Of a DNA stretch of 44,132 bases, positions 25,101 through 43,477 are shown in pieces (positions within the stretch are counted from its first letter, which is position 1; every line of letters begins with the position of its first letter). The translations under genes were made by a program, and so were the position numbers. The notes under the pieces are model-generated. The model was not told the DNA's origin, did not search any database, and saw only the letters and a program-made list of their open reading frames with translations. The DNA is taken from the IMG/VR virus record IMGVR_UViG_3300037493_001428, positions 1 to 44,132 of that record. One strand, written 5' to 3'. The DNA is from a virus.

Positions 25101-28100
25101 TAAGAGAGCAAGCTATTCAAGCACGTAATGAAGTTATCTTAGAACTATATGATGAGAGTGTTCAACGTATAGAAGATATAAACAAAGAGCTTGATAAAAC
25201 TCAAAACTCAATTGAGAGTGTTGAAAAACAATTAGCAGAAGAAGTTGCAAAGATACCTAGCACTAAGAAAGGTGTTCCTAGCAAAAGAGTTGCTAAAGCT
25301 CTTAGACAAACTATTGATGCATTAGGAAAAAGTCTTGAGAGTCTTAGAACTATAGAAGCTGATTTACAATCTGAAAGAGAAACTGTAGAAGCTAGTCTTC
25401 CATACATTCAATCTTTCATTGATGAATTAACTGAGGCTCCTGAAGATAACAATGATCTTATTGCAAAACTAAAAGGTGATGTTTCTATATTAAAAGATTT
25501 AGCTAAGATTACTACTGAGTCTATTGAGAAGATTGGTGAGTTGTACAAAACAGCTGAGAGTTTATTACAAGATGCTCTTGAAGAATTGAATGACTTTATC
25601 AAAGAGCTTAAAGAGAAGAATCCTAACATGCCTATTTTTATAGAAGACTTACAGGCTAATGTAGAAAGATTTTTAGGAGAGCAAGGAGCTGAACAATATA
25701 TACAAGATAGATTAGGATTTACTAATCAAGTGAGAGAGTTTGAAGATCAGATAACTGATCTTGAGAACTATCTAGAACTTCCAGGTCTTACAAAGAATGC
25801 AGATAAACTTAGACAAAGTCTCTCAGAGTTAAAAGAAGGACTACAAGCATTCAGAGGAGAGCAAGCTGCTAAAGAAGCAATTATTGAGAAGTTTGAAGCA
25901 TACATTGAGAAAGAGAAACAAAAGAAAGAAGAGGAAGAAAAGGTTGCTAAGAATAAAAAGATTCAATCAGAACTCTTAGGAACAGCAGATTCCAATGCTA
26001 TTCAGAACGAGAAGTCTGATGGTACATTTGAAAGTGATGATAAGAAACCTAACAGCATAATTCCTGAAGCAACTATAACTACTGGTGATAAACCTCACGC
26101 TGTTAGATCAAATGCTTTTGGAGCAAAGATGAATTCATTTGAGAATAGAGATGAAGTTCGTGGTGTACACATCACTTCTAAAAATGAAGATGATCTTATT
26201 CCAGGACTTACAGATCATTTAAGAAAAGATGATGATGATGTAGTAGATCAAGAGATTGATGGAGATAAAATCATTGCATTGGTGATGGTTGATAGCGAAG
26301 GTAATCTTCTCGATGTCAATGGTAAAAAGATTGAACCAATACGAGAAGGTGAAACTAAAGAACAATATGATCAAAGAGTTTTAGACACAGCCATCTATCA
26401 AGTTATGCCATTGGAGAAACTTCAATGGGGTCCTAAGTATGGAAATAAATCTATGTTTAGAGAAGGAACTTCTGAACAATACAAAGATGAAGTTCGTAAG
26501 AAATATGCAGCTTGGAGAAATGAAACATTAGAGCAATCTAATGTTGGTCCTCTTCATACAGTTGATGCATCTTTTGGTAGAGGGGAAATGGTACAGATAG
26601 AAGATGAGAAAGGTAATTTGAAAAATGATTACACTGCTAAAACATCTGTACAAAGTGCTGGGCTTATATCAGAAGAAGATCTTGCAACCACTCCTTTAAT
26701 TCACATTCCTAAAACAAATGCCACTGCTGCCAAGAAAACCACGTCATTTAAAAATGCACTTGGTCAAGTTTTCTTGGAGTTATCAAATGGATTTGTAAAA
26801 CTTAGAAACAGACAACATAATGAGAAAGAAGCTAAGGTGATTTTTGATTCATTAGTGATGCTTTCTAAATACATGATGGATAAATCAAAAGGTCTTAAGA
26901 GTGATGAGGCAGTACGTCTTCTTACATTCTTGAAGTCTTCTGTATATTGGGGTATTCCTGAGACACAACAAAAGGTTAGAAAAGCTGCAGGATACAATAG
27001 TATATTCTTTGAAAGAGATGCTGACACTGGAAGAATGATGTTGAACCTTTCTGGTAAAGGAATGGATTTTGTATTTACACCATCAGGTCTTTTGGAGAAC
27101 GAGGATACTATCCTTGGTATGTTAGAAGGAATGTACAAAAACGTAAACTCCTACATGACACAAAACCTAAATGAGTCATACGAAGAAATAACAGGTATTG
27201 GTCCTGATGGAGAAGTTAAATCTAACATATGGCCTAACTACCAAACATACTTACTTTCAAATAAGAATGCTAATGGTTCAGAGAGAGCAGCTGATGAAAT
27301 CCCTGTTACAACATTACTCAGACCTTTAGAAGGAGAGAATGATGTTAATAGAAAGAACATCTATTTCTTTACAACAGATAATGCAGATACATTTGCTACA
27401 ACTGTTTCTCCAGAGAAAGCTGCACCAGCTGTAATCACTCCAGGAATGCCAAAAGCAGCACCTGCTCCTGCTGCTGTTAAAGATGGTAAACAAGTTTTAA
27501 TTGATAATATACAAGCTAGAAAAAAAGCAGTACTTGCTAATGCAAAAACTGAAGAAGAGAAAGCTAAAATTAATGAGGACACTAATCAACTTTTAGAGAT
27601 TATAAACAATGCAAAAGTTGGAATCCCTGGACAATTTGTATTAGATGGTGAAACACTTAATATTCAGATTGGTAATACAGGAAACATGATTGTGTTTACA
27701 GCTGAATCAGGAATCACTGCAGAGAACTATAACGATAAGATTAAAATCAAACCTGCACTTGGTGATGTTATGAATATTGTTGAGATAGTGAAGAAACAAC
27801 TTAACATAGATCAAGCTGGAGCAGTTGATAACATAAAGAAAAGTTTAGCAACTGTAGTTGCTCAACAAGAAGCAGCTCCTGTAGTTGCTCCTGCACCTTC
27901 TCAAGAAGAGTTTGATGAATATGAACCATATGTAGAACCAGCGTTTGAAGAAGGTGTACAAGGTGGAATTGATCAAGCTAGTCAGAATGCAGGTAAGCCT
28001 ATTAGCAATTCAGTTAAGTCAATTATAAATTCAAAAAGAAAACCTAGTTCTAAAAAAGCTAGACGTGAAGTAATTGTACAAGATTTAAACAAATTCAAAA

Positions 28101-31100
28101 AAGAAGATTGGAACAAAGTGGAAAGATGGATTAAAGCTGTCCTTCCTAATATTCCTGTGTATAGAGTTAAGAATGTAATCCAAGCTACTAATGGAAAACA
28201 AGCTTGGGGTATGTTCCACAATGGTGCTGTTTACATTTATGAAAATGCACAAGTGGGAACAGCGTACCACGAGGTATTCCATGCTATATGGAGAATGTTC
28301 ACTGACACTAAAGAACAGGAAGCAATCTACAATGAATTTAAAAATAGAAGTGGTAAGTTCTTTGACAGAACTTCTGGTCAAACAATCAATTATGCTGAGG
28401 CAACAATTGATCAAATGGAAGAAGCTCTTGCTGAGGAATTCAGAGACTACGTACATGAAGGAAAGAAACCAGGTAAACCAAGCGATGGTAGACCTTTCAT
28501 TCTTAAAATGTTCTCTGATCTTGTAAACTTCATTAAAAAATTATTCTTAGGTAAAGAATCTGCTTCCTTAGTAGAGGAATTGTTCAAGAACATAAATCAA
28601 GGATCATACAAAGCAAGCATGCCATTCTCAAAAGAACTTGGGTATGCATCAAAAGGAATCATTGACATTGATGATATCTCAGGAGATGATGAGAGTGCGT
28701 TCAGTCTTGTTGAGATGGGAGACATTCAAAGAAATGAAATCCTTCAAGAGATGACTTATCAAACGTTGTTACAACTGATTGATAGTGATCAAGACTTGTT
28801 TGATATTCCTAACATCAAAAGATCTACAATCTATGAAGGACTTTATGGAAAGATCCAAAACATGATTGCAGAAGGAATAGACATTGCTTCAGAATTAATG
28901 ACTGAGCCTGAATATCAAACTCCAGAATTACAAAAACAATTACAAGACGAGATTGCTAACATTACACAATTGATGCAACAAGTTGAAGATAGTTGGGAAA
29001 GTATTATGGATAGACATCAAGAATACTTGAGAGGATATTCAATTACATTTGACGAGAATGATGAACTTGCATTGAATGATGATGAGAAAAGTAAAGAAGA
29101 TCCTTTTGGAGATTCAACTAAAATAGATCATTTCAAAAAGGCAAACGCTGCAATTAAGTTATTATTGTCAACTGTTCCTATGTTAGATGAAAATGGAGAC
29201 ATGAGAGTATCTTCAGTGGGTGGAGCAATCCTTATGCCAGTTAGTCAAACATATATTAGTGTAATGAACAACGTTCATAATTCTAATAACATTGAAGACA
29301 TGTTAGAGAAGTTACGTCAAATGGCAGTGTATGATCAAACATATGCTGTACTATATGATCGTATTACTAAATCATCATATAAACTTGAAGGATTAGATCT
29401 TAGCAAAGTTAAAACTGTACATGGTGCAAAACTTATTGATGCTTTCTTTAATACATTCAAGAAACAAAATCCTGATGTTAAGAATGTATTCATTCTTAGC
29501 AATGGAGAAATTGTTGTAGGAGAAGCTAATCTTTCTAGTGCAGCTTCCCAATTGAGAGCTGAGTATATAAATCAAATCATTACAAAAGCTAAAGAAGGAA
29601 AAGGTTTCTTTAAATATAATACCACTAAACAAGTTTATGAAGTTAATTCTGATAAACTTAAAAAATATCAAGTAGGTGATGCTATGCAAATGCTATCTTT
29701 CTTAAAAGAACTTGGTGTAGATTTTACAGGAAGACAATTCACAAAATTAAACGATGTCCAAGCTTCTATATTTAGAGATGCTGTATCTGGTATTAGATCA
29801 AGTATAGCTAATGCTCAAGAAATTAAAAACTTCTCAAGCAAAACTTTGGACATGGAGAAACGTTTGTTTCAACTTGGTTTATTAAAAGCTTCTATAGACA
29901 ATCCTCAGTTTGACAGTACATTCTTTAATGTGTCTGGAGAACGTACACAATCATTTGTTGGAACTAATGCTGCAAGTAACTTATTTACATTCCTTAGCAA
30001 CCTAACTGCTTTTACAAAAGATCAATTAGCTGGAACTAACTTTGCTTATTTAGGAACTGATTCTTTTGTAGAAGGTTCTTCTTTATTGAAAAGAAAATAT
30101 ACAGCTGATGGAAAAATTATTTCAGGTTCAGAAGATTTATTAACTGTAGGATATGTAGGAGGTATTGTAAATGAAACCAATGGTAAAACTAAACCATCAT
30201 CAAAACTAGATTATAAAAATCGTCTTGTACAAGAATTAAATCTTAACTTGAAAGGTTGGTATCTCAATCTTGTTCCTGGAGATGCATCTTTGGAATGGAT
30301 GATTAAAATGGGTAACCCAATTTCTGCAGTTAGTCTTACTAGAGGATTTGGAGAAGTACATGAGTTATTCAAAGGATATTTTCTTTCTGAATTAAAACTA
30401 GCTAGAGAAGATCGTCCTATTGCAAATGTAAAAGGAAGAAGTACCAATGATATGCGATTCTTCAAGTCTATTCTTGGAGAGGTATTACATACTGAGATAA
30501 TTAGTTCTAGTGAGTTAGTTGAAGAAGTTTATGCACAATATGAAAAGAAAATCAATACTGCATTAGACAAGTTTATTGAAACTCAAAAAAATAAATTTGT
30601 TAATACGTTAGTAGAATATGGTATTGTAAAACCAGAAGGATATGGTTATACATTAGAAAACCTTGATCTTCCTAAAGGAATGATTGAGGCTGAGTTCAAT
30701 AGACACATGAACATGCTTACAGTTAATTTCTTTGTGGCAAACATTGAGATGCATAAGTTGCTATACTCAGATCCTTATCAATATTCTGATGAGTTGAAAC
30801 GTATCAAAAACTTTAACTCATCTGGACAACCCCTTATGAATAGTTCACCAAAAATGAATAAACTTTATAACACTGTGTGGAATAAAGGATACAAAAGAGG
30901 TGACATAGGATATACAAACTTTACACAAGAGCATTTCAAAACAGCTACACATGCTGACGTTAATGGTATTGTAGATCTTCCAAACTATGATAACTATAAA
31001 GAGACTGATGGTGCTGGTATGATTTCATTCAAAGCACATCGTCAGTTTAGAATTAGATCTTCTAATTGGAATTCTAATGAAGAAGCACAATATAAATATG

Positions 31101-34100
31101 ATGTAGCTTGGGAAAAAGTTGATAAAGGAATTAAATTAAATCCTGGTGAACAAGAGATATATGATCTTGGTAATCCTGAAGTTAAGAGTGCATACACTCC
31201 TTCTAAACCTATTGCTCGTGGAAACAAAGCAAATGGTAATAACTACAATGATGTTGTATTAGATAAGTTCGCTCTCTATCCTGTTTCATATAGAGTGATG
31301 AAACAAATCAACCCAACTTCGAACATGGTTAAACTTTATAATAAGATGCAAAAAGAAAAGATCGATTATATTGTATTTGAAAGTTCTAGAAAAGTTGGAG
31401 TGGATAAAGCTCATGCAACATATAATGCAGAAGATTCTAGTTTCAATGAAACTAAATATGCTAAACGTACAATTACAAACGTACCATTCTCAGTGTTATA
31501 CGTACAGGCAGAAGTTCCTTCTAAAGATATAGATGTGGTTACACGAGGTTCTCAGGTAACTAAACTTATCACCATGGACTTCTTGGATGCTGGTGTACCT
31601 ATTGACTTTGAAATAAAAAATAGTAGTGGGGAAATAGATACAAATTTCACCAACAGATATGAAGCTTGGTTTAGATTATCTGAAGAACAGAAGAAAGAAC
31701 AATCTGATGTATATAAAGAAATTAAAAACAATGAAGACTTATTAGTTGCATTGATAAAGAATGGTTACAACAACCTTCTTAAAACTTTAGGTATTTCAAA
31801 TGTAAATGGTGAGTTTAAAATTATAAATTTCAATAAATCTGCTACAACCTTACGTAACGAGATTCTAAAAAGAGAAGTTAATGATAACATTAGTGATGCT
31901 TTAAAATCTTTCTTAGAAGGTAAAGCTATTCTTGAAGCTACTCCTGCATATCAACAAGTTAGAAATATTCTTTATTCTATTGCTGATAGAGAAGTTGTTT
32001 CTTCTAAGATGCCTGGTGGTATGAAAGTACAGATTCCTTCTACATTGTTAGAGTCTGTTCGTGCAAAAGAAGTTGAAGTTAATGGTAAGAAAGGACTTGC
32101 TTCTGATGTTCTTAATTTCTATGAGAAAGATGGCAAACGTGTATGTGAAATCATGGTTGGTAGATGGTTCAAGTCAGATTTATCTGATGATGAATTATTA
32201 GATTTATGGTATAAAAAAGATAAAAAAGGTAATAGAACAGAAGAATTAACAGAAGAAGGAGAAAAGATTTTGTCAGGACTTGCATATCGTATTCCTACAC
32301 AGAAACAAAACTCTATTGATAGTTATGTTATTAAGCAATTCCTTCCAAAAGAATTTGGAGACTCTGTTGTTATTCCTGCTGCACTTGTTGCTAAAGCTGG
32401 ATCTGACTTTGATATTGATAAGTTGTCCATTTATTTCAAGAATGTAAAAATTGGAAAAGATGGATTACCAAAATATATTGAATTCCAAGACAATAGTAAT
32501 TCAACTGTAGAAGAACGTTATGTAAAATATGTTTCTGAGAATACACCAGACTACAAAGACATTGTAAAAGACTTTAGAGAATCTGAAGAGTTTGCTACAA
32601 AGAATAAAAAAGTTGATAGTGCATTTGAAACTGTTGGTAATGAAAGACAGAAGTTAGGTGAGGTCAAAACAGAAATAGATGATGCATATGAGATTGGCTA
32701 TGAATCATTTAAACAACTTCCATTAGGAGTGAAACAAGTGTTTTGGGAAGTAGAGAGAGATTTAAGGGAAGAAGATATAGATGGGTTACAAAAGAATCTT
32801 TTCTATGCCAGTATTGCTGAAAAATTATTATCAGAAGTAAGTGGTAAGGAAACTGTTACACTTGAACAAATCATTAAATCTAAAAATGGTGAAACCAAAA
32901 CTGAGAAAGTTACAGTACCTGTTGAAGAGATTGTTCCACATTTAGAAGCAATGTTAGAAAACTATAAAGAGATGAGTGCTCTTTATGGTATATCTAATGA
33001 ACAATTTCAAAAAATTACAAGCAGTTTAGCAAATGCTAAGACTATAAAAGAAATACTAAACGATAGATATAAACTTGAAGTGGCCAAAGTTGTTGCTGAG
33101 TTTACAAACTTAGACAGCTTAGAAAAATTTGGTCAGAGAAAAATGCAAGACCAGAATACCAGAAAAGCGTTAGAGAATGCATATACACAATCTTCTCAAA
33201 ACCTTGTATCTCATCCTAAGAACTACGACAGACTTATTCAACCTAACTCTGCAGAGCAATTAAAAGGATTAGCTAAGTTTGTTGCTGAGAAAACTGCTGG
33301 ACAATCTTTTGATTATACAGATGTTGGTAACATGCTTGATAGAACATTCATGTCTAAATTAAGACATGCGTTTGTTAGTGGTAAGTATGCAATTGGTATT
33401 GCTGCTGTAAACCAAACTAACCACTCATTGAATCAACGTCAACCTATCTTTATTGACATAACAAAAATCAAAGACCTACCTGAATCAGATAGATATTGGT
33501 TAGGTAATGGAAGAGTTACATTTGAAGCATTCAACAAACTTGCAGTTGGTGGATATATCTCTCCAATATTCTCTATGGCTAAGAATGCTGAGAGAAGTGA
33601 AGAGTTTCCTGAAGGTCAAGATATCTCTGATATCCTTGCACAGTTTATTGATGGATATGTGGATATCTCTAAAGGTCCATGGATCATGGAACTTGGAGCC
33701 ACTTCTAATGTTGCTTCTACATGGATGACATTAGTTAAACTTGGTGTGCCTATTGAGACAGTTACTTACTTCATGAATCAACCAATTATTCGTGACTACT
33801 TAAAATCAGTTGAAACTGCTGGATATTCATATTTATTCATTGATGATTTTGTTAGTGAATCAATGAAAAAATATGCACCAAAAGATCAAAAGAGAACACC
33901 TCAAGAATGGAAGGATGCTAAAGAATCATTCAAAGTCCCATCGAAAGATGTTTTGAAAAATCTTGTTGGTGAGGATGTTTCTAAAATGGATAAACAACAA
34001 TTAGAAACACAGCAATTGATGTTATTGGAATTTTTGAAATATGCTAAGATGGCAGAGCAAATGTTCCAAGTAACACAGGGATCTAACTTTGATACAGCAA

Positions 34101-35686
34101 CCTTGAATGATCCATCATTGGTATTCAAGAAAATAAAAATGCTTGAGAAAGCACAAAAAACAATCATCTCTTCTGTTGATGAAAATGGTAAAACTATACC
34201 TGGTGTAGATGCATTATTAAAGAACTCGTTCTTAGGTGAGATGGGAGAGTCTATCATTAATATGAGAGAAGCTCTTGCTCAGATATTAATGTCTGACAGA
34301 CCAGCAATTAGAAAAGTTATTGAACAAGTGCTAACTCCATACCTTGAAACTCCTGATAGAGAGTTTGTAAAAATTGCACAGAAAACTGTTAATGATCTTT
34401 TTGATTGGGCTATATTCACACATGATGGATACGCTGATTTAATAAAATCAGAGTTGATTAAAGATGGTGGCACTGCAAAACAAATCTATGAGTTTGCAAA
34501 AGAAGTTAAAGATGATCCAAATCATCCTTTACATGATAACTTTGTAATTAACATATTAGAATACAAACCTTCATCAAGACCTGGAGATAGTGTAAACAAT
34601 TTAAAAATCAAAGGTGTAGATAACAAAACCTTTGATCAGAATAACATCATTGGTGCATTCAGACAAATAAGAACATACATTGCTAATCAAGAAGCATTAG
34701 GTAATAAAAAAGATTCAGCTATATATAAAGGACTAGTTAATGTGGCAATTTTACAATCAGGACTTTCTAACTCTCCTATATCATATACATCTTTACTTCC
34801 TTATGAAGATTTTGCAGAGGTTTATAATCCAACTCTTTCTAAGTTAGAGAACTTTGGGAACTTAGATTCATTTGTTAACTTAGGAGTGTTTGCAAGAAAC
34901 AACTGGAATAGTGATACGTATGTTCCTAGTTCTGTTGCAAGATGGCTTTCTATTACAGATTACATGGGTAATAGAAACTCTATCTATAATCCATCTATGT
35001 ACTTTCTTCCTGAAGCTGTAAAAGATGCTGTTTCAAATGGAGAGATTCCACAAGTTGTAACACAGTCAGTAAGAAACTCAGGATCAAGTTCTGATTATAT
35101 AACATTCTCTTGGGAATTACAAACTGAGATTTTGACAGCTGATGAACTAAAAGCTGCACAAGATAAAGGTGATGTAATGGCTGCAGTATTTGCTAAAAAG
35201 AATGCTCTACGTAAAGCAGGTGATTATTCATTTATACAAAGAGGATTATTTCAAAAAGTACGTGATAGTTTTGGAACACCATTAACTACAGAGGATAGAA
35301 AAGGTAAAGAATACTTTGTATATAAAGCAATCAATGCTTGGGGTGATTCATTTAGAGCTAACGAGTTCTACGATGTAGATAAACAATCAGTGATTGAAAA
35401 TGGAATGATTAAAGTAAATCCTGCAAGTGATAACTTAATCATTGATATATTCAGAGGAACAAGACCTATGGTTGGAGCAGTCACTGCAACAACACCTATA
35501 GAAAGTGTTTCTTTGAAAGGTGCATTTAATGGATTAAATGAATTCACTCTAGAACAAAAATCACAAATTTTATCTAACTTTGCTATCAAGCATGGACTTA
35601 CTTCAGAGCAAGCATTGAAAGACATTAATGCAGCACTTAAAAAGGATCGAGCTACTGCAATCGAACAATTAAAAAAATGTTACTAA
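22193..35686 (+). CDS. Giant 4,497-residue virion protein: ejection region, zincin metalloprotease and DxDxD RNA polymerase
   Basis: This single frame joins several activities. Residues about 90-510 contain Gly/Ala-rich hydrophobic stretches (about 109-129, 190-226, 480-500) typical of ejected membrane-active proteins. An SH3-like beta segment spans about 800-863 and a long coiled coil about 943-1250. A zincin metalloprotease lies at about 1990-2120, with H2026EVFH2030 and E2077 or E2081 as third ligand. The RNA-polymerase region centres on D3405FDID3409 within KAGSDFDIDKLSIYF, the Mg-binding loop matching DFDGD of cellular beta-prime subunits, preceded by RIPTQKQNS and followed at about 3729 by GKYAIGIAA. 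The crAss-like phage phi14:2 gp66, a virion RNA polymerase of about 2,200 residues, is the family reference; this protein is about twice as long. It would be injected to transcribe early genes. Proteolytic release of the polymerase is an inference. Confidence 0.85.
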   Translation: MENEETMLPISPLTENFLPTNRILPMESQDVAPYRGVSLERNTGGPADNFMPPMAKGDSQLPDMVTTGQLYGARRYPVYDANKTENEFAYGQTWMDQARNGILKGLNLTATTVVGGFATVGGLIASPFTGRLSTIWDNPLMNELDKWNEKVDNEYLPNYYTDAEKNAEWYSRDNWWTPNFLFDKVIKNSGFAVGAMISGNIANAAFKGLGALAGALASEGAIAAEASQSFKLFSPLLKNTARAFSNGKNVEAAQLLKSEITSIADATQRTSKMAEIAKQGNLFAKINDAGRRTAIATYSSAGEASFEALQTSKEYRNNLIEKYKAEHGGEEPKDAQLEYINEQADVVGKTSFLGNLAILSITENAQLNKLLGSSYAADKQAANSLFGEVDDVLLKADKYVAKTPTTKFGKLYDKVTGVGKYFFDPKEGAQEIAQYALQVGTKNYWNKAHETDDADAWVDGALYGMFGKDEAGEGVGAFVSKEGMEGGFIGALTGGGMQAFSNYGQGKAKRENTNKFLEQLNDAPTFKEAFKDRIDSANRGVVLQQQQQSAVIQGDKLEAKDLNTDLMHNYLAPRIKYGRFDMVMDDLAELKQMGMSTEGLSELINQGVANTNDTVQSFQTRLSNFENVAKNTQEIFKFNDLAYSGEVLKDKDGVPILKDGKPQRKYTSAAIMQMNYAAAKVADYDLRIPEVSMGPISAGVLVQDIINQELTDPKSKALETEVAKIKSSKEVKAKETAQQLTDVVEMSMRRKQYLDEYNDIIAAPQKYADAREEFIKNLTASGQVPGQAPETITIKTKLGDRDIEIGTDYFLGKVVEYDKQGRPVNRAPIVRILGEEDGKIKMQDVKTGEITLVSPDAIEDYKLGKVSDATQKDIWINNNWNTVFQHRGIKNKKGLPIEGRIENHPKQGMMYFVYTDDRGRVQKIPVKNSDFVAKEGYKRGMIAPKQKLVATEQQTLEKIFSAKERAAQSLREQAIQARNEVILELYDESVQRIEDINKELDKTQNSIESVEKQLAEEVAKIPSTKKGVPSKRVAKALRQTIDALGKSLESLRTIEADLQSERETVEASLPYIQSFIDELTEAPEDNNDLIAKLKGDVSILKDLAKITTESIEKIGELYKTAESLLQDALEELNDFIKELKEKNPNMPIFIEDLQANVERFLGEQGAEQYIQDRLGFTNQVREFEDQITDLENYLELPGLTKNADKLRQSLSELKEGLQAFRGEQAAKEAIIEKFEAYIEKEKQKKEEEEKVAKNKKIQSELLGTADSNAIQNEKSDGTFESDDKKPNSIIPEATITTGDKPHAVRSNAFGAKMNSFENRDEVRGVHITSKNEDDLIPGLTDHLRKDDDDVVDQEIDGDKIIALVMVDSEGNLLDVNGKKIEPIREGETKEQYDQRVLDTAIYQVMPLEKLQWGPKYGNKSMFREGTSEQYKDEVRKKYAAWRNETLEQSNVGPLHTVDASFGRGEMVQIEDEKGNLKNDYTAKTSVQSAGLISEEDLATTPLIHIPKTNATAAKKTTSFKNALGQVFLELSNGFVKLRNRQHNEKEAKVIFDSLVMLSKYMMDKSKGLKSDEAVRLLTFLKSSVYWGIPETQQKVRKAAGYNSIFFERDADTGRMMLNLSGKGMDFVFTPSGLLENEDTILGMLEGMYKNVNSYMTQNLNESYEEITGIGPDGEVKSNIWPNYQTYLLSNKNANGSERAADEIPVTTLLRPLEGENDVNRKNIYFFTTDNADTFATTVSPEKAAPAVITPGMPKAAPAPAAVKDGKQVLIDNIQARKKAVLANAKTEEEKAKINEDTNQLLEIINNAKVGIPGQFVLDGETLNIQIGNTGNMIVFTAESGITAENYNDKIKIKPALGDVMNIVEIVKKQLNIDQAGAVDNIKKSLATVVAQQEAAPVVAPAPSQEEFDEYEPYVEPAFEEGVQGGIDQASQNAGKPISNSVKSIINSKRKPSSKKARREVIVQDLNKFKKEDWNKVERWIKAVLPNIPVYRVKNVIQATNGKQAWGMFHNGAVYIYENAQVGTAYHEVFHAIWRMFTDTKEQEAIYNEFKNRSGKFFDRTSGQTINYAEATIDQMEEALAEEFRDYVHEGKKPGKPSDGRPFILKMFSDLVNFIKKLFLGKESASLVEELFKNINQGSYKASMPFSKELGYASKGIIDIDDISGDDESAFSLVEMGDIQRNEILQEMTYQTLLQLIDSDQDLFDIPNIKRSTIYEGLYGKIQNMIAEGIDIASELMTEPEYQTPELQKQLQDEIANITQLMQQVEDSWESIMDRHQEYLRGYSITFDENDELALNDDEKSKEDPFGDSTKIDHFKKANAAIKLLLSTVPMLDENGDMRVSSVGGAILMPVSQTYISVMNNVHNSNNIEDMLEKLRQMAVYDQTYAVLYDRITKSSYKLEGLDLSKVKTVHGAKLIDAFFNTFKKQNPDVKNVFILSNGEIVVGEANLSSAASQLRAEYINQIITKAKEGKGFFKYNTTKQVYEVNSDKLKKYQVGDAMQMLSFLKELGVDFTGRQFTKLNDVQASIFRDAVSGIRSSIANAQEIKNFSSKTLDMEKRLFQLGLLKASIDNPQFDSTFFNVSGERTQSFVGTNAASNLFTFLSNLTAFTKDQLAGTNFAYLGTDSFVEGSSLLKRKYTADGKIISGSEDLLTVGYVGGIVNETNGKTKPSSKLDYKNRLVQELNLNLKGWYLNLVPGDASLEWMIKMGNPISAVSLTRGFGEVHELFKGYFLSELKLAREDRPIANVKGRSTNDMRFFKSILGEVLHTEIISSSELVEEVYAQYEKKINTALDKFIETQKNKFVNTLVEYGIVKPEGYGYTLENLDLPKGMIEAEFNRHMNMLTVNFFVANIEMHKLLYSDPYQYSDELKRIKNFNSSGQPLMNSSPKMNKLYNTVWNKGYKRGDIGYTNFTQEHFKTATHADVNGIVDLPNYDNYKETDGAGMISFKAHRQFRIRSSNWNSNEEAQYKYDVAWEKVDKGIKLNPGEQEIYDLGNPEVKSAYTPSKPIARGNKANGNNYNDVVLDKFALYPVSYRVMKQINPTSNMVKLYNKMQKEKIDYIVFESSRKVGVDKAHATYNAEDSSFNETKYAKRTITNVPFSVLYVQAEVPSKDIDVVTRGSQVTKLITMDFLDAGVPIDFEIKNSSGEIDTNFTNRYEAWFRLSEEQKKEQSDVYKEIKNNEDLLVALIKNGYNNLLKTLGISNVNGEFKIINFNKSATTLRNEILKREVNDNISDALKSFLEGKAILEATPAYQQVRNILYSIADREVVSSKMPGGMKVQIPSTLLESVRAKEVEVNGKKGLASDVLNFYEKDGKRVCEIMVGRWFKSDLSDDELLDLWYKKDKKGNRTEELTEEGEKILSGLAYRIPTQKQNSIDSYVIKQFLPKEFGDSVVIPAALVAKAGSDFDIDKLSIYFKNVKIGKDGLPKYIEFQDNSNSTVEERYVKYVSENTPDYKDIVKDFRESEEFATKNKKVDSAFETVGNERQKLGEVKTEIDDAYEIGYESFKQLPLGVKQVFWEVERDLREEDIDGLQKNLFYASIAEKLLSEVSGKETVTLEQIIKSKNGETKTEKVTVPVEEIVPHLEAMLENYKEMSALYGISNEQFQKITSSLANAKTIKEILNDRYKLEVAKVVAEFTNLDSLEKFGQRKMQDQNTRKALENAYTQSSQNLVSHPKNYDRLIQPNSAEQLKGLAKFVAEKTAGQSFDYTDVGNMLDRTFMSKLRHAFVSGKYAIGIAAVNQTNHSLNQRQPIFIDITKIKDLPESDRYWLGNGRVTFEAFNKLAVGGYISPIFSMAKNAERSEEFPEGQDISDILAQFIDGYVDISKGPWIMELGATSNVASTWMTLVKLGVPIETVTYFMNQPIIRDYLKSVETAGYSYLFIDDFVSESMKKYAPKDQKRTPQEWKDAKESFKVPSKDVLKNLVGEDVSKMDKQQLETQQLMLLEFLKYAKMAEQMFQVTQGSNFDTATLNDPSLVFKKIKMLEKAQKTIISSVDENGKTIPGVDALLKNSFLGEMGESIINMREALAQILMSDRPAIRKVIEQVLTPYLETPDREFVKIAQKTVNDLFDWAIFTHDGYADLIKSELIKDGGTAKQIYEFAKEVKDDPNHPLHDNFVINILEYKPSSRPGDSVNNLKIKGVDNKTFDQNNIIGAFRQIRTYIANQEALGNKKDSAIYKGLVNVAILQSGLSNSPISYTSLLPYEDFAEVYNPTLSKLENFGNLDSFVNLGVFARNNWNSDTYVPSSVARWLSITDYMGNRNSIYNPSMYFLPEAVKDAVSNGEIPQVVTQSVRNSGSSSDYITFSWELQTEILTADELKAAQDKGDVMAAVFAKKNALRKAGDYSFIQRGLFQKVRDSFGTPLTTEDRKGKEYFVYKAINAWGDSFRANEFYDVDKQSVIENGMIKVNPASDNLIIDIFRGTRPMVGAVTATTPIESVSLKGAFNGLNEFTLEQKSQILSNFAIKHGLTSEQALKDINAALKKDRATAIEQLKKCY
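28160..28560 (+). other. Intact zincin metalloprotease domain inside the giant RNA-polymerase protein
   Basis: Residues about 1990-2122. GTAYHEVFHAIW supplies HExxH (2026-2030), and MEEALAEEFRDYV about 46-51 residues later supplies the acidic third ligand. It is followed by an amphipathic hydrophobic helix (FSDLVNFIKKLFLG). All residues expected for zinc-dependent catalysis are present. Confidence 0.78.
32390..32440 (+). other. RNA polymerase catalytic loop DFDID
   Basis: D3405, D3407 and D3409 form the DxDxD magnesium site of two-barrel (DPBB) RNA polymerases. Flanking AKAG and KLSIYF strands fit the double-psi beta-barrel loop. Confidence 0.85.
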
Positions 35687-35687
35687 T

Positions 35688-38600
35688 ATGAGTTGTGTTA
35701 ATCCAAATAATCCAGAGTTTCAAGAATTAGTTAGAAAGACAGGAAACTACTTGCTTGCTGAGATAGAGTTTACAAAAAATTCTCCTATCATTCAGAGCAA
35801 TGGAAAGTTATTAAATCTTCCTGAAGAAGCAAAGCAACGCATATATGAGAACTATGTAAACCTAATGGACAGAAAACGTGAAGGTAAAGCTATCACGTAC
35901 AAGTCATTTATTAAAAGCGTTTATAATAACTTACAAGTTTTTAAATCAAAAGACACATATATTTTTGGTGAGTGGGATAGAAACAATAATGTATTCAAAG
36001 GAAGATTCATGTCTTCCCCAAACATTAGAGAGATGTATGGTGCATTAGATGAGTTAATGGACATGGTTAACTTTGCTGCATCTGTTCCAGAAGATATTGG
36101 ACGTATGCTTGAAAAGAAAGGTATGTACAAACTTAATGTTGGTAAAGAATATGACTTCAAAGGAGAGCAAATGATTAAAAACATTTACTTCTCAAATGAA
36201 GAATTAGTTAGAAAAATATTTAAGAAAGAGGTGAGCGACATCACTGAACAAGATGTTAGAAAATACGACAAATTTTTTAACTATAAGTCTATACTTTATA
36301 AATTGGAAAAGCAATTTAATAAAGGTAAGTTTGATGAAATCTACAATACATTAAAAGAGTTAGGGATTTATGATTACAATGCTTACAAGATTCTTAACAA
36401 ATTCAAACAGTTAGATAAAAACTTTACTCCTGAAGAACTAGAAAAGTTTAAAGCAGAGAATGCAGAATTATATTTCACTCCACAAGAGAAACAGAAATAT
36501 AAAATCTATAAAGAATACATGCAGATCATTAATAGTGTGAAAGATCAAATCGCATCTAATAGTGCATCTAATATGGTTAATATAGATAGAACAGATATAT
36601 TAAACAATCCAAAGATTTATAGTCAACTTGACACTGATTTAAATAAAACTTTAGCCACCTACTTATCAAAGTTTGGTATTAAGACAGAAGTTTTAAAAGA
36701 CATGCAAGATAAATTAGGAATTGATTCATTTGCACATGTTGATATTCTTAATAAGATATTATATACATCTGAAACAAATCAAGGAGAATACCCTCAACAA
36801 GCAGGAAAGTTAATTGCGTACATGATGCAACATAATCCTCTTGTAACAGAGATTATGGCAAACATGAAACGATCTTCAATGTTTGGAAGTAAACTTAGTA
36901 AGGATGATTTACTAGATGTAATTGGTGATTTAATTGCAGAACAACTATACAATAAAACAAACACTCAAGTTCCACAATCAATTCTTGATAAAATTGGAAT
37001 GTTGATTAGACAGTTCTTTCAATTCCTAACAGATGTAAGACTTTCTAGAATTAATAAGAACGTTGGTATAATTGCTGAGAATGTATTGATACAAAATCAA
37101 TCGTTGATTACTTTCTCTCCATTTAAACCTGGAGCATCTGGTAAAGAAGTTGTAAGAGTTAAGTTTCAAGAAGCATTAGATAAAGATCGTTTTGCTACAG
37201 CAATTGTAGATAGAATGGCTGATAAGTTTATTCTTGGAGGAAGTATTTCTTTTTCTGAACAAGGTCCTGTTTTGAGACCTGATGAAAACCAAGTTCATGA
37301 TTTGGATTGGGTTTCTCCATATACAAGAAACACCACTGTAAAAGAATTTGAAAATCTATATCCTGAAGGACAAAGAGTTTATATTAGAGAGATAAACGAT
37401 AAGGATACTGGAGAATGGACTGACACATGGTTAGTGTGTGAAGATGGACATACTATACAGAACTTGGTACTATCAAATGATGGCAAGAATAAAGTTCTTG
37501 CTTATGACATTGTTAGTGATGAGACTGGTGAAGTGGTTAGTAAATACATACCAAAACCAGAATCTCATTCAGGAGATATAGAAGCTAAACCTATTGATAT
37601 TTTCTCAAGTGATGGACAACCTAAAGAAAAATATGGCACTCAAGATTTTACTACCACTTCAGGAACTGTAGTTAAACTTGGAAACTGGAGAGCGTCATTT
37701 GAGGCTAAACTTAGATATGGTCGTTTAAAAGATATTTGGGATTATAATAGATTCATTCCTGATGAAAACATCTATCAAGGAGAGCCTGCAGAAACTAACT
37801 TCCAATTGGAAGGCATGCCTATGTCTGCTGCTAGTGAGCAAACTCTTGCAAAAGTCAAAGAGCTTATTGCTAAAATGGGAGTTAGTATTGAGTCACTTTT
37901 AGAATATGCAAAAAAATCTAAACTGAATCTTAAAGATGTAAATGCTGTGGCTGACATGGTCCATGGTATAATTGCTGTAGCTGAAGGAAAAGAAAATGTA
38001 TCTCTTACAGAAGAGATGGTGCACATTGCCACTGCTATATTACAAGCAAAGAATCCTAAGATGATTACAGAGATGATTGCTAAGATTGATCGTTTCAAAA
38101 TATACAATCAGACACTAAAAGCATATAGAGATAATCCTGACTATCAACTTCCTAATGGTAAACCAGACATTCGTAAGATTAAGAAAGAAGCTGTCGATAA
38201 GTTGATAGCTGAATTAATTGTTAATGGTGGGCAAGATATTGCTCAATACCCTGAACTATTAGAAGAGGAGAATCAAAACTTAGTTCAACGTTGGTGGAAT
38301 GCCATCATGGACTGGTTCAGAGGAATGTACAAATCTACAAACGTTAGTATATTCCAACAGACTGCTGACATTATTATGAATGATCAATTAGAAGGAGACT
38401 TCACAGACATTCAGAATAAACAAATCTACTATCAATTAAGTGCTCCACAAGAAGCTATACAAAAAGAAGTATTAGATAGACAATCTAAAATAAAGAAAGT
38501 AGAGAGTGGTGAGAAAGTTGATCCAATGTTTATGGACACTGAAGAAGCTAGTAACTGGTATGAAATTCAAAACGAAGAAGGTGTTTTTAAAAGAATTGAG

Positions 38601-41600
38601 AAAAGGGTTACTGATCGTGTGAAAGCTTGGTATCGTCAGAGATTTGGAAACAAAACTTTTACTAAAGAAGAACAAGCATTTAATGAATTCAAGAGAAAAT
38701 TTGGAGTTAAAGCTCATGGTTGGTTTGAAGACATTCATGGTAGATATTTTAATTCAGATGGTACAAGAAAAATTTCAATTGATAAAAGAAAGATTAAACT
38801 TTCTCAAACAGAAGAAGACATGTACAATCAATTGGAAAAATACTTCTCAGATCTTGTAGCTAAGTTCTCTGAGAATGGTAAAACTCCTTTGGTGTTTTCT
38901 GAGATTATGTTATATGATCCTAAAGAAAAGGAAGCAGGAACAATTGACCTTATGATTGTTGATGAGAATGGTAAGGTTAATATATTTGATTGGAAGTTCA
39001 TGAGTATGGGAGCTAATCAAGAAGATGTTGCTTGGTATAAACAAGGAGCATATAACATTCAGCTTGGTCGATACAAAGACATGCTTCGTAATTCATATGG
39101 AGTGAAAGAGTTTGGAATGAACAGAGCTATTCCAATCATCATGGACATTAAATCTCCATTCAGTATGAATCCTAATGCTGATCCAATTGTTGCAGGAATA
39201 GCAATTGGTTCTGTAAATCCTTCTGAGATTAAAGAGCTAAGACTTATTCCTGTATCAGAAGAAACTGAGTCTACTGGATTTGATACATTAGATACACTTA
39301 TAAATGATTTGAATGCTGTATATAGACAAATTAGTAAAACAAAAGTTACTGATGATGAAGAGAAGGAGTTCAAATCAAAAAGATTAAATAGCATCAAGAA
39401 AGCAATACGTGCTGCACAAGGATCATTAAACATTGCTCCACTGGTTGAAGTTATTCGTGAGATGAGAATTAGTGGTCAGATGATTATTGATGACTATACA
39501 ACAACTTATGCTAATCGTCCTGCTACAGCAGATGATCTTAATAATAAAGAACTTTCTGACTTCTCAGATGAGATGAGAGAGTACTTAGCAATTGCTGAGA
39601 TTTTTGGTAGAGTGGATGATCGTATTAGAGATCTTATTTATAATTCTGAAATGGAAACAGCAGCTGAAACTGCTGAACAAAAAGAAGCTGTTAAGCTTAG
39701 AAAAGATCTTCTTGATAGTATCAGAGATGAAACTAGTAAGATTAGAGAACATAAAGATGCTATTAAAGATGTCTCTGGTAAATTTGCTGACAAGTTCATT
39801 GGACAGAAAAATCTTGTAACAGGACTTCTTAATCCTGAAGCAGTGCTAAAAGGTTTAGGAGCTTTATTCAATGGTGTATCTGATCTTCCATTAGCGTCAC
39901 TTAAGATTTTATACAAGCTTGTGAACAATGCTAAAGGTATGGCATCTAGAATTGCAAATGGTGAAGTTGAAGAACTTATGGCAATTAGAAAACGTCTTGT
40001 TGAAAGAGGTGGTAACACAAGAGATTTAATAAAACAAATCTATCAACGAGACGATAAAGACAATTGGGTGAATAAACTTATTTATAAATACAATAAGGAT
40101 TTTTACACTGCTGTTGATCAGAATGCTGAAAGTGGATACAGAAGCAAAGCTTGGTTAAAAGACAACATTGATATAGAAGCTTATAAAAAAGAAGCTTTGC
40201 AAAAAATGAATGAGAACATTAGATACTACGAAAGAAGATATGCTGATGATTCTAATTTATTGGATCAAATGATCTATGAAGAAAAGTTGAAATGGGATAT
40301 AGATGATGAAAACTTTAATGGTTGGAATAACTACCTTATAAAAAGACATCCATTAGAAAAATGGCAATCTCAAGAATATATAAATCTGTCTAAAGACAAA
40401 GACTTATTAGATCTTTACGAATTCATTTCTAACATAAATCAAAAAGCCAAATCTGTTGGATACATTCAGAATGCTGTAGCTTCTACATTCTTACCATTTG
40501 TTAGAAAATCAATGGCTGAGAGTCTTGCTTGGGATGCTAGTCTTTCTGTATTAACTTCTATGGGAGATAGTCTTTCAATGAGAGCTGAAGATGTTGGATA
40601 TGGATCTATTAATGAGCTCACAAAAGAACTTGAACATGGTATTCCTAAATACTACACACATGACTTTAGTAGAGCTGAGGATGGTACAAATGACTACAGC
40701 GATGTGAGTGAAGACTTGTTCAAAAATATGATTATGTACATTAATCATATGGAGAAATACTCAATGTTAACTGAGATTGAAGGACAATTACAATTGGTAA
40801 AAACAATTGAGGAAGGTAAAAAACACTTGAACACTAGTCAAACAGGTGACGTTATTATTAAGAATGGTAAACCAGATGAGATAGCAGGAAACAAGGAGAA
40901 CACTCAAATGTTTGATGATTTCTTACGTGGTTTATTATACGAACAAAAATATCCTCTTTCTGATTCTGACACTCCTTTAAACTTGAATGTTAAAAATGCT
41001 GTTAAAAAAGCAATTAATAAGGTTGCAGGTAGAGAAGTTTATCCCATTGATGAGAATCCAAGTGCTACGTCATTAGTTAAAAGTATTGATGCAATGAACA
41101 GAGCTTTCCAATTAAAAACTCTTGGATTTGAAGTGTTATCTGGAGCTGTGAATGCCTTTGGTGCTAATATACAAGTTGCTACACAAGCTGGTAATTATTT
41201 TAAAGCTAGAGAAGTTTTAGCCAATGAACGTAAATTAATTGGAAACAAGTTTAAAAATAACGAGGAAAGAGATATGTTTGTTCAATTAGTTGATGCTTTC
41301 ATGCCTTTGAAAGATGATCCTACATATGATAAATTAAAAAAAGCAGGATTATCAAAAATAACTCAACAAAATTTTTCTGATTGGTTATGGGTATTTATGA
41401 GAAATCCTGAACAACACATGGAAAAATCTATATTCTTAACCTTGTTAGATAATACAATGGTTGAGGATGGTAAGCTTGTAAACATTCGTGAGTTTGTTAA
41501 AAACAAATATAAAGATAGATATGAGCAAGGTGCAGCTAAAGCAAGAGAGATTGATAGCAAGATTGATTCAGAAATTGCAGAACTTAAGAAAACAAGATCA

Positions 41601-42563
41601 ATTAGTGTAACTAAAAAATTAATTGATGGTAAACTTGAGATTCCTGGTTTTGATATGAAGAATGTCAATGAACTTCAAAGACTTACAAACTTAACTAGAC
41701 GTATTGCAAGAAATGCAACAGGTGGTATGGCAGACTCTGATATGAACAGAGCTTCTATGAACATCTGGTTGAGGTCAATGATGGTGTTTAAAGGTTGGAT
41801 TCCTAAACTTTTGAAAACACGTTTCTCTGAACTAGCAGAAGTTTCAGATGACTTCTCTACAACAATTGATGAAGATGGTATGACTATTGGTCAGAAATAT
41901 GATATAGGTCGTATTAGATTATTTGGACATGTATTAGGTGATGGTATAATCCAAGGTGCTGCAAACATTCGTAACATTATGGTTCTTAATGATGCAGGGC
42001 TTGCACGTTTGGATAAGATGTACGAAGACTTTGCTGCAAGTTATGAGAAACGAACTGGTAAAGTTCTTCAAATGGATAAAGCTGATTTTATTGACTTGAT
42101 GAGAAACAATTTACGTAATCAGGTAAAAGAGTTAGCAATATTGATGAGTTTATTTGCAATGTACTTATCATTAGGATTTATGGCTCCAGATGATGATGAA
42201 GACAAAGCAACTAAAAACTTCTACAGATTCTCTCTAAGAACTGTTGACAAGTTTGTTAATGAGCTTTCGTTCTTCTACAATCCTGTTGAGTTCCAAAAAC
42301 TATTGAGTGGAAGTGCGTTTCCTGCATTAGGAATATTTTCAGATATTGAAAGATTTACAAGTCATTTCTTTATGGAAACTACTGGTGTAGACCTTTCAGA
42401 AATGGATCGTGGTTCAGAAGAAGTTAGAAAAAAAGCACAACCAATTAAATATTTTAGTAAGATGTTACCTATTACAAAATCAATGATCACATACATGGCA
42501 ATCTTTGATTCTGATTTTGCAAAAGAATATGACGTAACAATACAAAAAGAAAGTATGAGGTAA
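35688..42563 (+). CDS. Giant 2,291-residue virion protein with RecB-type nuclease and two degenerate zincin domains
   Basis: It starts MSCVNPNNPEF, 1 base after the preceding stop, and was probably made to be ejected with the polymerase protein. Domains seen: a first zincin-like domain at about 345-450 with the HExxH position read as Q370QAGK374; a second at about 745-885 with E775EMVH779; both keep the downstream acidic helix (E418, E842) and the following hydrophobic helix. A PD-(D/E)XK nuclease of RecB type at about 990-1165 shows H1010, E1072, GTIDL with D1087, D1101-W-K1103 and Q1125LGRY1129. The C-terminal 900 residues are helical, with LGFEVLSGAVNAFGANIQ at about 1815 and a probable membrane segment at about 2147-2168 (LAILMSLFAMYLSLGFM). 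The nuclease could degrade host DNA or process phage DNA ends at entry; which one cannot be told from sequence. Confidence 0.75.
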   Translation: MSCVNPNNPEFQELVRKTGNYLLAEIEFTKNSPIIQSNGKLLNLPEEAKQRIYENYVNLMDRKREGKAITYKSFIKSVYNNLQVFKSKDTYIFGEWDRNNNVFKGRFMSSPNIREMYGALDELMDMVNFAASVPEDIGRMLEKKGMYKLNVGKEYDFKGEQMIKNIYFSNEELVRKIFKKEVSDITEQDVRKYDKFFNYKSILYKLEKQFNKGKFDEIYNTLKELGIYDYNAYKILNKFKQLDKNFTPEELEKFKAENAELYFTPQEKQKYKIYKEYMQIINSVKDQIASNSASNMVNIDRTDILNNPKIYSQLDTDLNKTLATYLSKFGIKTEVLKDMQDKLGIDSFAHVDILNKILYTSETNQGEYPQQAGKLIAYMMQHNPLVTEIMANMKRSSMFGSKLSKDDLLDVIGDLIAEQLYNKTNTQVPQSILDKIGMLIRQFFQFLTDVRLSRINKNVGIIAENVLIQNQSLITFSPFKPGASGKEVVRVKFQEALDKDRFATAIVDRMADKFILGGSISFSEQGPVLRPDENQVHDLDWVSPYTRNTTVKEFENLYPEGQRVYIREINDKDTGEWTDTWLVCEDGHTIQNLVLSNDGKNKVLAYDIVSDETGEVVSKYIPKPESHSGDIEAKPIDIFSSDGQPKEKYGTQDFTTTSGTVVKLGNWRASFEAKLRYGRLKDIWDYNRFIPDENIYQGEPAETNFQLEGMPMSAASEQTLAKVKELIAKMGVSIESLLEYAKKSKLNLKDVNAVADMVHGIIAVAEGKENVSLTEEMVHIATAILQAKNPKMITEMIAKIDRFKIYNQTLKAYRDNPDYQLPNGKPDIRKIKKEAVDKLIAELIVNGGQDIAQYPELLEEENQNLVQRWWNAIMDWFRGMYKSTNVSIFQQTADIIMNDQLEGDFTDIQNKQIYYQLSAPQEAIQKEVLDRQSKIKKVESGEKVDPMFMDTEEASNWYEIQNEEGVFKRIEKRVTDRVKAWYRQRFGNKTFTKEEQAFNEFKRKFGVKAHGWFEDIHGRYFNSDGTRKISIDKRKIKLSQTEEDMYNQLEKYFSDLVAKFSENGKTPLVFSEIMLYDPKEKEAGTIDLMIVDENGKVNIFDWKFMSMGANQEDVAWYKQGAYNIQLGRYKDMLRNSYGVKEFGMNRAIPIIMDIKSPFSMNPNADPIVAGIAIGSVNPSEIKELRLIPVSEETESTGFDTLDTLINDLNAVYRQISKTKVTDDEEKEFKSKRLNSIKKAIRAAQGSLNIAPLVEVIREMRISGQMIIDDYTTTYANRPATADDLNNKELSDFSDEMREYLAIAEIFGRVDDRIRDLIYNSEMETAAETAEQKEAVKLRKDLLDSIRDETSKIREHKDAIKDVSGKFADKFIGQKNLVTGLLNPEAVLKGLGALFNGVSDLPLASLKILYKLVNNAKGMASRIANGEVEELMAIRKRLVERGGNTRDLIKQIYQRDDKDNWVNKLIYKYNKDFYTAVDQNAESGYRSKAWLKDNIDIEAYKKEALQKMNENIRYYERRYADDSNLLDQMIYEEKLKWDIDDENFNGWNNYLIKRHPLEKWQSQEYINLSKDKDLLDLYEFISNINQKAKSVGYIQNAVASTFLPFVRKSMAESLAWDASLSVLTSMGDSLSMRAEDVGYGSINELTKELEHGIPKYYTHDFSRAEDGTNDYSDVSEDLFKNMIMYINHMEKYSMLTEIEGQLQLVKTIEEGKKHLNTSQTGDVIIKNGKPDEIAGNKENTQMFDDFLRGLLYEQKYPLSDSDTPLNLNVKNAVKKAINKVAGREVYPIDENPSATSLVKSIDAMNRAFQLKTLGFEVLSGAVNAFGANIQVATQAGNYFKAREVLANERKLIGNKFKNNEERDMFVQLVDAFMPLKDDPTYDKLKKAGLSKITQQNFSDWLWVFMRNPEQHMEKSIFLTLLDNTMVEDGKLVNIREFVKNKYKDRYEQGAAKAREIDSKIDSEIAELKKTRSISVTKKLIDGKLEIPGFDMKNVNELQRLTNLTRRIARNATGGMADSDMNRASMNIWLRSMMVFKGWIPKLLKTRFSELAEVSDDFSTTIDEDGMTIGQKYDIGRIRLFGHVLGDGIIQGAANIRNIMVLNDAGLARLDKMYEDFAASYEKRTGKVLQMDKADFIDLMRNNLRNQVKELAILMSLFAMYLSLGFMAPDDDEDKATKNFYRFSLRTVDKFVNELSFFYNPVEFQKLLSGSAFPALGIFSDIERFTSHFFMETTGVDLSEMDRGSEEVRKKAQPIKYFSKMLPITKSMITYMAIFDSDFAKEYDVTIQKESMR
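36700..37060 (+). other. Degenerate zincin domain 1
   Basis: Same layout as the intact domain in the upstream giant protein: strand (ILYTSETNQGEY), helix at the HExxH position (PQQAGKLIAYMM, active residues replaced by Q, Q and K), acidic helix (DVIGDLIAEQL, E418) and hydrophobic helix (IGMLIRQFFQFL). Presumably non-catalytic. Confidence 0.55.
37920..38350 (+). other. Degenerate zincin domain 2
   Basis: VSLTEEMVHIATAIL occupies the HExxH position; the first His is Glu (E775), while the Glu (E776) and second His (H779) remain. The acidic helix (KLIAELIV, E842) and the aromatic hydrophobic helix (RWWNAIMDWFRGMY) follow. Probably inactive, possibly a structural or substrate-binding module. Confidence 0.55.
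38655..39180 (+). other. PD-(D/E)XK nuclease domain (RecB-like)
   Basis: Residues about 990-1165. H1010 in a first helix, E1072 in FSEIML, D1087 in GTIDLM, D1101 and K1103 in FDWKF, then Q1125xxxY1129 give the full RecB/AddB/Cas4-type motif set. Catalytic residues are all present, so activity is expected. Confidence 0.82.
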
Positions 42564-42700: not shown

Positions 42701-43138
42701 ATGAGAACATTTCTTTTACAATTATTAGCAGCCCTACTTTTATTTTTTGCGCCAATTCAACAGTTAGTTATGGTCGTAGGTCTAGCAATCATGTTAGATA
42801 CATTCACAGGTATTTATAAATCAGTTAAATTAAGTGGATGGAGATCCATTCGTAGTAGAAAGTTGTCAAATATAATAAGCAAACTAGTTCTTTATGAGGT
42901 GTCAATCATTCTCCTCTATCCAATTGATAAGTTTTTATTGAACGAATTGCTGCTGAACGTTGTTTCAGTTCAATTCTTTTCTACAAAAGTTGCATGTGTT
43001 CTTCTTATTTTAGTAGAGCTTACATCAATTAAAGAAAACGTAGAAGCTGCTCTTAAGATAAACATCTGGCAGGTTTTGAAAAAAGCAATCAATAGAGCAA
43101 AAGAATTAAAAGGTGATATTGAAGAGATTAAAAACTAA
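42701..43138 (+). CDS. Holin (phage_holin_4 / toxin-secretion holin-like)
   Basis: A 145-residue membrane protein. Hydrophobic segments lie at about 3-17, 20-33, 61-80 and 97-111. The segment LDTFTGIYKSVKLSGWRSIRSRKL is typical of the Bacteriophage holin family 4, where an Asp-Thr-x-T-G motif follows the second hydrophobic segment. The C-terminus is a charged amphipathic helix (KKAINRAKELKGDIEEIKN). Holins make holes in the inner membrane at the end of infection to release or activate the endolysin. It is the first gene after the second candidate promoter and heads a lysis cassette with the M15 peptidase and a spanin-like protein, which supports the call. No ribosome binding site is evident near the ATG. 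Confidence 0.8.
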   Translation: MRTFLLQLLAALLLFFAPIQQLVMVVGLAIMLDTFTGIYKSVKLSGWRSIRSRKLSNIISKLVLYEVSIILLYPIDKFLLNELLLNVVSVQFFSTKVACVLLILVELTSIKENVEAALKINIWQVLKKAINRAKELKGDIEEIKN

Positions 43139-43168
43139 TAAAGATAAACAATTTAAAAAAATAAAAAT

Positions 43169-43477
43169 ATGTTTAGTACAACTAATGTATATATAACAAT
43201 ATTTGCTGTAATACTGGCAATGTCATTTATTGGCTATTCTGTTTATTATATAAATAGAATGTTTTCAGATAACACACAAGAAATTTTAGTTAGATTTATA
43301 CTATTAGTATTTACAGCTTTAGTTGGTGTGTTTGTAGTGGATAAAGTAATAGCTTTTGGTATGCCTTTATTATCAGAACATCAAAATGACCAATTATTTG
43401 ATTTAATAAAAACCCTTACTTTAATGATATTTAGTTATTATTTTGGTACAAAAAAAGAAAAAAATGCAACTGAGTAA
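43169..43477 (+). CDS. Small membrane protein, possible second holin or antiholin
   Basis: A 102-residue protein with three predicted membrane segments at about 7-28, 39-68 and 79-96, ending in SYYFGTKKEKNATE. Short proteins with a hydrophobic helix followed by YYFG-type and a charged tail are common in phage lysis cassettes. It lies between the holin and the M15 peptidase and overlaps the latter by 14 bases. The A-rich leader AATTTAAAAAAATAAAAAT precedes the ATG. A role as a second holin, an antiholin or a pinholin partner is inferred from context only. Confidence 0.6.
   Translation: MFSTTNVYITIFAVILAMSFIGYSVYYINRMFSDNTQEILVRFILLVFTALVGVFVVDKVIAFGMPLLSEHQNDQLFDLIKTLTLMIFSYYFGTKKEKNATE

Follow-up and report, generated by a model that had tools for sequence, protein, structure and literature searches.

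A conserved RecB-family nuclease domain in a probable virion cargo protein of a crAss-like phage

A segment of a giant protein encoded in the window is confirmed here, by sequence comparison and a predicted structure, as a RecB-family PD-(D/E)XK nuclease domain whose active site is complete and universally conserved in the complete relatives examined. By the window we mean the whole stretch of DNA that was analysed, 44,132 nucleotides (positions 1 to 44,132 of the IMG/VR virus record IMGVR_UViG_3300037493_001428). Our reading, which we hold to be moderately probable, is that the domain is a RecB-family DNase that is delivered with the virion RNA polymerase (vRNAP) and is active on DNA early in infection. 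The window is crAss-like: it encodes CrAss_Ring_1 and CrAss_Ring_2 proteins, together with a muzzle-type protein whose relatives include those of csAssE-Sib and Cellulophaga phages. Among annotated proteins, the muzzle-type protein (2792-7711) finds its best match in Leptolyngbya phage Lbo-JY46, a cyanobacterial record, which is unusual for a crAss-like phage. Also, the structural block includes a 1,900 aa protein (10312-16014) with LysM (residues 1215-1258) and Amidase_2 (residues 1757-1881), a probable virion-borne wall hydrolase, and a lysis cassette of a holin (Phage_holin_4_1) and an M15 peptidase endolysin follows directly after the nuclease gene on the same strand (42701-43925). The tail block opens with the 3′ part of an SbcD/Mre11-like metallophosphoesterase (3-590, phrog_704), also present in 7 of 8 near-complete relatives; its ORF is cut at the 5′ end of the window, and it was rejected as a further exonuclease of the RecB kind since its GNHD and GHFH motifs are those of an SbcD/Mre11-type metallophosphoesterase. 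The features on which the argument is built are the following.

22193..35686, + strand: vRNAP orthologue, 4,497 aa, directly upstream of the nuclease gene (family profile matches)
32405..32419, + strand: DFDID motif of the vRNAP, residues 3405-3409, within SDFDIDK (sequence motif)
35688..42563, + strand: nuclease carrier protein, 2,291 aa (ORF; phiCrAss001 gp49 orthologue by core profile)
37830..38327, + strand: zincin-like domain, residues ~715-880 (structure match with Z 7.5 to a zincin metallopeptidase domain; conservation)
38565..39347, + strand: RecB-family PD-(D/E)XK nuclease domain, residues ~960-1220 (alignment, conservation, PDDEXK_1, AlphaFold2 model, structure matches)
39615..42560, + strand: helical conserved C-terminal region, residues 1310-2291 (AlphaFold2 mean pLDDT 72.9)

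The nuclease thus lies between the zincin-like domain and the long helical region, and in the relatives too it is invariably embedded in a giant protein. Its conserved extent is somewhat wider than the interval 38655-39180 (residues 990-1165) that had been marked from the sequence alone. In the zincin-like domain, EExxH (E775, E776, H779) together with E834 replaces HExxH...E, and E775 and H779 of this degenerate motif (38010-38024, residues 775-779) are invariant across 51 aligned relatives; the protease may have been lost or repurposed in the lineage of this phage. It may be added that a zincin motif is intact as HEVFH in the neighbouring vRNAP ORF (28268-28282, residues 2026-2030), and that the carrier orthologue gp076 of phi14:2 reads HEIMH at the zincin motif. 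The N-terminal 690 residues (35688-37757, residues 1-690) are variable, being shared at full length with the relative L003, while most relatives have from 0 to about 500 aa there. Structure searches with the C-terminal region 1310-2291 gave no match above Z 5 and no known fold. The full-length protein returned nothing useful from Pfam and PHROGs, and hits to PDDEXK_1 and exonuclease families came only when the domain was taken alone, together with those of the relatives.

The sequence-only reading had listed a complete RecB-type motif set (H1010, E1072, GTIDL with D1087, D1101-W-K1103 and QxxxY), and all of these are found where it placed them. They are given below with their putative counterparts in MGME1 and with their conservation.

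38703..38717, + strand: GxxxH motif, G1006 and H1010 (H1010 corresponding to the metal-coordinating H180 of MGME1), invariant in 59/59
38901..38903, + strand: E1072 (MGME1 E223), invariant in 59/59; 15 residues to D1087, as for E223-D238
38937..38948, + strand: G1084-T-I-D1087, D1087 being a putative metal ligand (MGME1 D238); G1084, T1085 and D1087 invariant in 59/59
38988..38996, + strand: D1101-W1102-K1103, the DxK element (MGME1 D251-W252-K253); D and K in 59/59, W in 58/59
39060..39074, + strand: Q1125xxxY1129, sequence Q1125-L-G-R-Y1129 (MGME1 Q271/Y275), 59/59

IMG/VR was scanned with the whole protein (13 loci) and with a domain profile (80 loci), and after near-duplicates were dropped the conservation alignment comprised 59 sequences including cr108_1. 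Ten motif residues (G1006, H1010, E1072, G1084, T1085, D1087, D1101, K1103, Q1125 and Y1129) do not vary across the 59 non-redundant relatives, and their spacing is near-constant, so that the survey of homologues proposed earlier for D1087, D1101 and K1103 failed to refute the earlier reading. DWK formed part of one search pattern out of two, and 8 of the ten invariant residues lie outside this pattern; the chance of eight preselected columns all landing among the invariant ones is p about 3e-11, a crude value as columns are not independent. A second set was retrieved by patterns from the C-terminal 982 aa only, made without reference to the nuclease. This gave 77 loci, of which 75 carry the nuclease and the remaining 2 are truncated, their contigs starting within the gene. 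The active site is intact in 76 of 76 sequences of this set (window included), which overlaps the set of 59 and is not an independent sample of it. We infer from these alignments that the domain has been maintained by selection as an enzyme.

As to the family, 11 of 12 members have a match to Pfam PDDEXK_1 at E<=1, the strongest at 1.6e-7; the window sequence on its own reaches 18.9 bits, under the 22-bit cut-off, and the PHROG exonuclease family 298 (phrog_298) is matched by 12 of 12. A profile of the 12 members found no match among PDB sequences. An AlphaFold2 model of residues 695-1330 (636 aa) was built from 51 sequences with cr108_1 left out, and in its nuclease region most blocks have pLDDT 85-97 and form a predicted alpha-beta-beta-beta-alpha-beta core. 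Foldseek of this model against the PDB gave weak E-values (best 0.025); re-examination by VIA-align was informative, with AddA (Z 10.4), MGME1 (10.2), AdnA (8.9), Cas4 (8.7) and RecB (8.4) as top matches over model residues ~269-501. Because the motif is invariant in both sets, the family matches PDDEXK_1 and the core fold is predicted by AlphaFold2, we do not take the motif to have arisen by chance.

The active-site set of MGME1 consists of H180, E223, D238, D251-W252-K253, Q271 and Y275, and substitutions of H180, E223, D238, D251, Q271 and Y275 reduce its activity (PMC6237815). The window domain has all of these residues in matching order, including the 15-residue distance from E to D and the QxxxY, a correspondence read from order and spacing rather than from atom superposition. 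The predicted fold and the full active-site set are thus shared with the nuclease domains of MGME1, AddA, RecB and AdnA, from which the window domain differs in being embedded in a phage giant protein and in having no helicase. Helicase families are absent from the full protein, so that it is not an SF1 helicase fusion of the AddA/RecB type, and residues 940-1240 contain no cysteine, so that the Fe-S cluster of the Cas4, AddB and Exo5 nucleases is absent too. On these two grounds the domain appears closer to MGME1 than to the helicase-fused or Fe-S branches.

The nuclease gene had been placed in the same operon as the virion polymerase, and this is borne out by the 4,497-aa ORF one base upstream of it. 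A phmmer search of this neighbour against the PDB was negative, and a family profile later linked it to phi14:2 gp077 (2.2e-47) and crAss001 gp50 (1.1e-30), by which we identify the ORF as the vRNAP. We take gp077 to be the polymerase that Drobysheva et al. studied, where the gene is numbered differently. The motif GSDFD[IV]DK is present in the ORF upstream of the nuclease giant in 22 of 24 relatives inspected, and in 21 of those 22 loci no further long ORF lies between the two. Of the other loci, cr108_1 has its RNAP split over two ORFs and L014 has no upstream DNA.

On matching the carrier core by profile, we found crAss001 gp49 (E 1.9e-16) and cr108_1 gp_22608 (E 1.3e-58), while phi14:2 gp076, annotated from MS/MS, matches the carrier C-terminus (1.4e-5). 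Residues 700-2291 align collinearly with crAss001 gp49 in five blocks; between blocks one and two gp49 has no nuclease, and only ~57 residues join the flanking parts there. As gp49 lacks the domain, the core function of the carrier would be independent of the nuclease. In the uncultured phage cr108_1, the orthologue gp_22608 (QOR58988) does carry the nuclease with all ten motif residues kept; identity to the window protein is ~20-24%, and DYK stands for DWK. In crAss001, gp47, gp49 and gp50 were found in virions by mass spectrometry (PMC10172136). Packaging of the nuclease protein in the virion of the present phage, in line with the sequence-only reading of a probably ejected protein, is probable because this carrier is orthologous to the MS-detected gp49.

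A related domain exists in a second cargo protein. The nuclease profile matches residues 1733-1881 of crAss001 gp47 (E 1.7e-7), and in reverse a gp47-type profile recovers the window nuclease (6e-7). The gp47-type sequences of crAss001, cr128, bajarodcaudo virus, cr85 and DAC15 retain GxxD and DxK, and in most cases QxxxY; the Tyr of QxxxY is absent in Dulem virus 41, and the match in cr124_1 is weak and too short for judgement. Conservation does not extend to the His and Glu positions of the gp47-type sequences, GxxxH probably being GxxxD with Asp apparently in place of His, a tentative assignment as the automatic alignment misplaces some residues; with these residues lost or replaced, activity of the gp47-type domains is less sure. 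The gp47 domain of phiCrAss001 therefore resembles that of the window in its motifs GxxD, DxK and QxxxY and in sitting in a virion cargo protein confirmed by MS (PMC10172136), and differs in its carrier and in the His and Glu positions. No nuclease domain was detected in the other giant proteins of cr108_1, in crAss001 gp49, in the window vRNAP or in the phi14:2 proteins searched. Resting on few genomes, these comparisons suggest that the nuclease is located in one or other of two co-packaged RNAP-associated proteins.

According to our preferred reading, the carrier would be made late, together with the vRNAP, and packed in the capsid. It would then be threaded through the tail, partly unfolded, before the DNA, and refold inside the cell, where a metal-dependent DNase would cut or trim DNA within the first minutes of infection. 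As substrates, single-stranded DNA or DNA ends would be likeliest, whether they belong to the host chromosome, to plasmids already in the cell or to the incoming phage genome. This reading is supported by the predicted fold, the active site and its conservation, the vRNAP operon and the orthology to virion cargo; from these we infer packaging in this phage, ejection, activity and, most conjectural of all, the target. Counting against it are crAss001 gp49, which lacks the domain, the tentatively altered His and Glu positions of the gp47-type domains, the PDDEXK_1 score of the window sequence below the cut-off and the weak Foldseek E-values. Delivery together with the vRNAP is well supported by orthology, and the takeover and counter-defence roles suggested earlier are conjectural possibilities. 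A search of the literature found no published functional test of crAss-like phage nucleases of this type.

Rather unlikely, in our estimate, is a purpose confined to the vRNAP complex, whereby the nuclease would nick or resect the entering template for early transcription (exposing single-stranded DNA, clearing ends) and host takeover would not be its job. Its encoding beside the vRNAP agrees with this, as do its two RNAP-associated carrier proteins in two lineages (the gp49-type protein here and in cr108_1, gp47 in crAss001), and it was never detected in the RNAP polypeptide itself. But adjacency may mean co-packaging only, and neither crAss001 gp49 nor the phi14:2 proteins searched showed the domain; the phi14:2 vRNAP is active in vitro according to a review (PMC10136315).

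We also consider it unlikely that the domain is a pre-ejection or late nuclease of recombination, concatemer processing or packaging that reaches the virion merely through its carrier. The structural and most cargo genes of crAss001 are indeed late (PMC10136315). When 8 near-complete relatives were searched with PF12705, phrog_298 and the family profile for a further RecB-like nuclease encoded on its own, the embedded domain was the only match to phrog_298 or PDDEXK_1, so that it may be their sole RecB-like nuclease and the late role gains some weight, although this is a weak negative from an insensitive search that misses divergent nucleases, PDDEXK_1 recovering even the embedded copy in no more than 2 of the 8. 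Moreover, the separate SbcD-like exonuclease of 7 of these relatives speaks against the late role, and a fusion to ejected cargo would be an odd location for a packaging enzyme.

Cleavage of RNA rather than DNA is very unlikely. The endonucleases of influenza PA and bunyavirus L are PD-(D/E)XK enzymes on viral RNA polymerases and, with the association to an RNA polymerase here, offer a precedent, but the full RecB-family signature with QxxxY fits DNases, as do the top structures AddA, MGME1, AdnA, Cas4 and RecB. That the domain is a catalytically dead relic, serving as a structural or DNA-binding module, is most improbable in view of zero active-site substitutions in the overlapping sets of 59 and 76 sequences, even though dead PD-(D/E)XK domains exist and the zincin beside it no longer has His at the first position of HExxH.

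The activity had been proposed as possibly unrecognised, and this is not supported in that form. For some crAss-like phages, Yutin et al. in 2021 (PMC7886860) described a large protein associated with transcription that contains a PDDEXK domain, likewise a giant protein of the crAss-like transcription block, and the gp49-type protein may already be drawn in Fig. 3 of that paper. The domain of crAss001 gp47 is homologous to the present one, other crAss giant proteins already carry PD-(D/E)XK names in UniProt, and a 2023 review calls the function of the crAss PDDEXK domain unclear (PMC10136315). The text of Yutin et al. speaks of 'some phages', without an analysis of function or conservation, whereas here the domain is intact and universal in one large lineage. 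The present analysis adds that the active site is intact and universal, that the carrier is of the gp49 type and that such a domain occurs in two distinct cargo proteins. The polyvalent phage proteins of Iyer et al. 2017 (PMC5512222), which include the N4 vRNAP, are also multidomain, injected and often equipped with a zincin; the DNases discussed there are ParB-like and RecB is not mentioned in the text, while the window protein has a nuclease and a degenerate zincin in one polypeptide and would be injected.

In the human gut virome the crAss-like phages are dominant, and they package several megadaltons of cargo, whose role beyond transcription is a question. An intact nuclease in an orthologue of an MS-confirmed cargo protein provides a concrete, testable enzyme for this question, and the related gp47 domain of phiCrAss001 is testable in a cultured phage-host pair. 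For the family as a whole we see an even balance of probability for the statement that crAss-like phages deliver a RecB-type DNase with the vRNAP, as a module in differing co-packaged cargo proteins (gp49-type here, gp47 in phiCrAss001), which would act on DNA in the first minutes in takeover, counter-defence or genome-end processing. Should the nuclease be active once ejected, its action would be immediate-early and without need for transcription, and could come ahead of host defences or phage gene expression.
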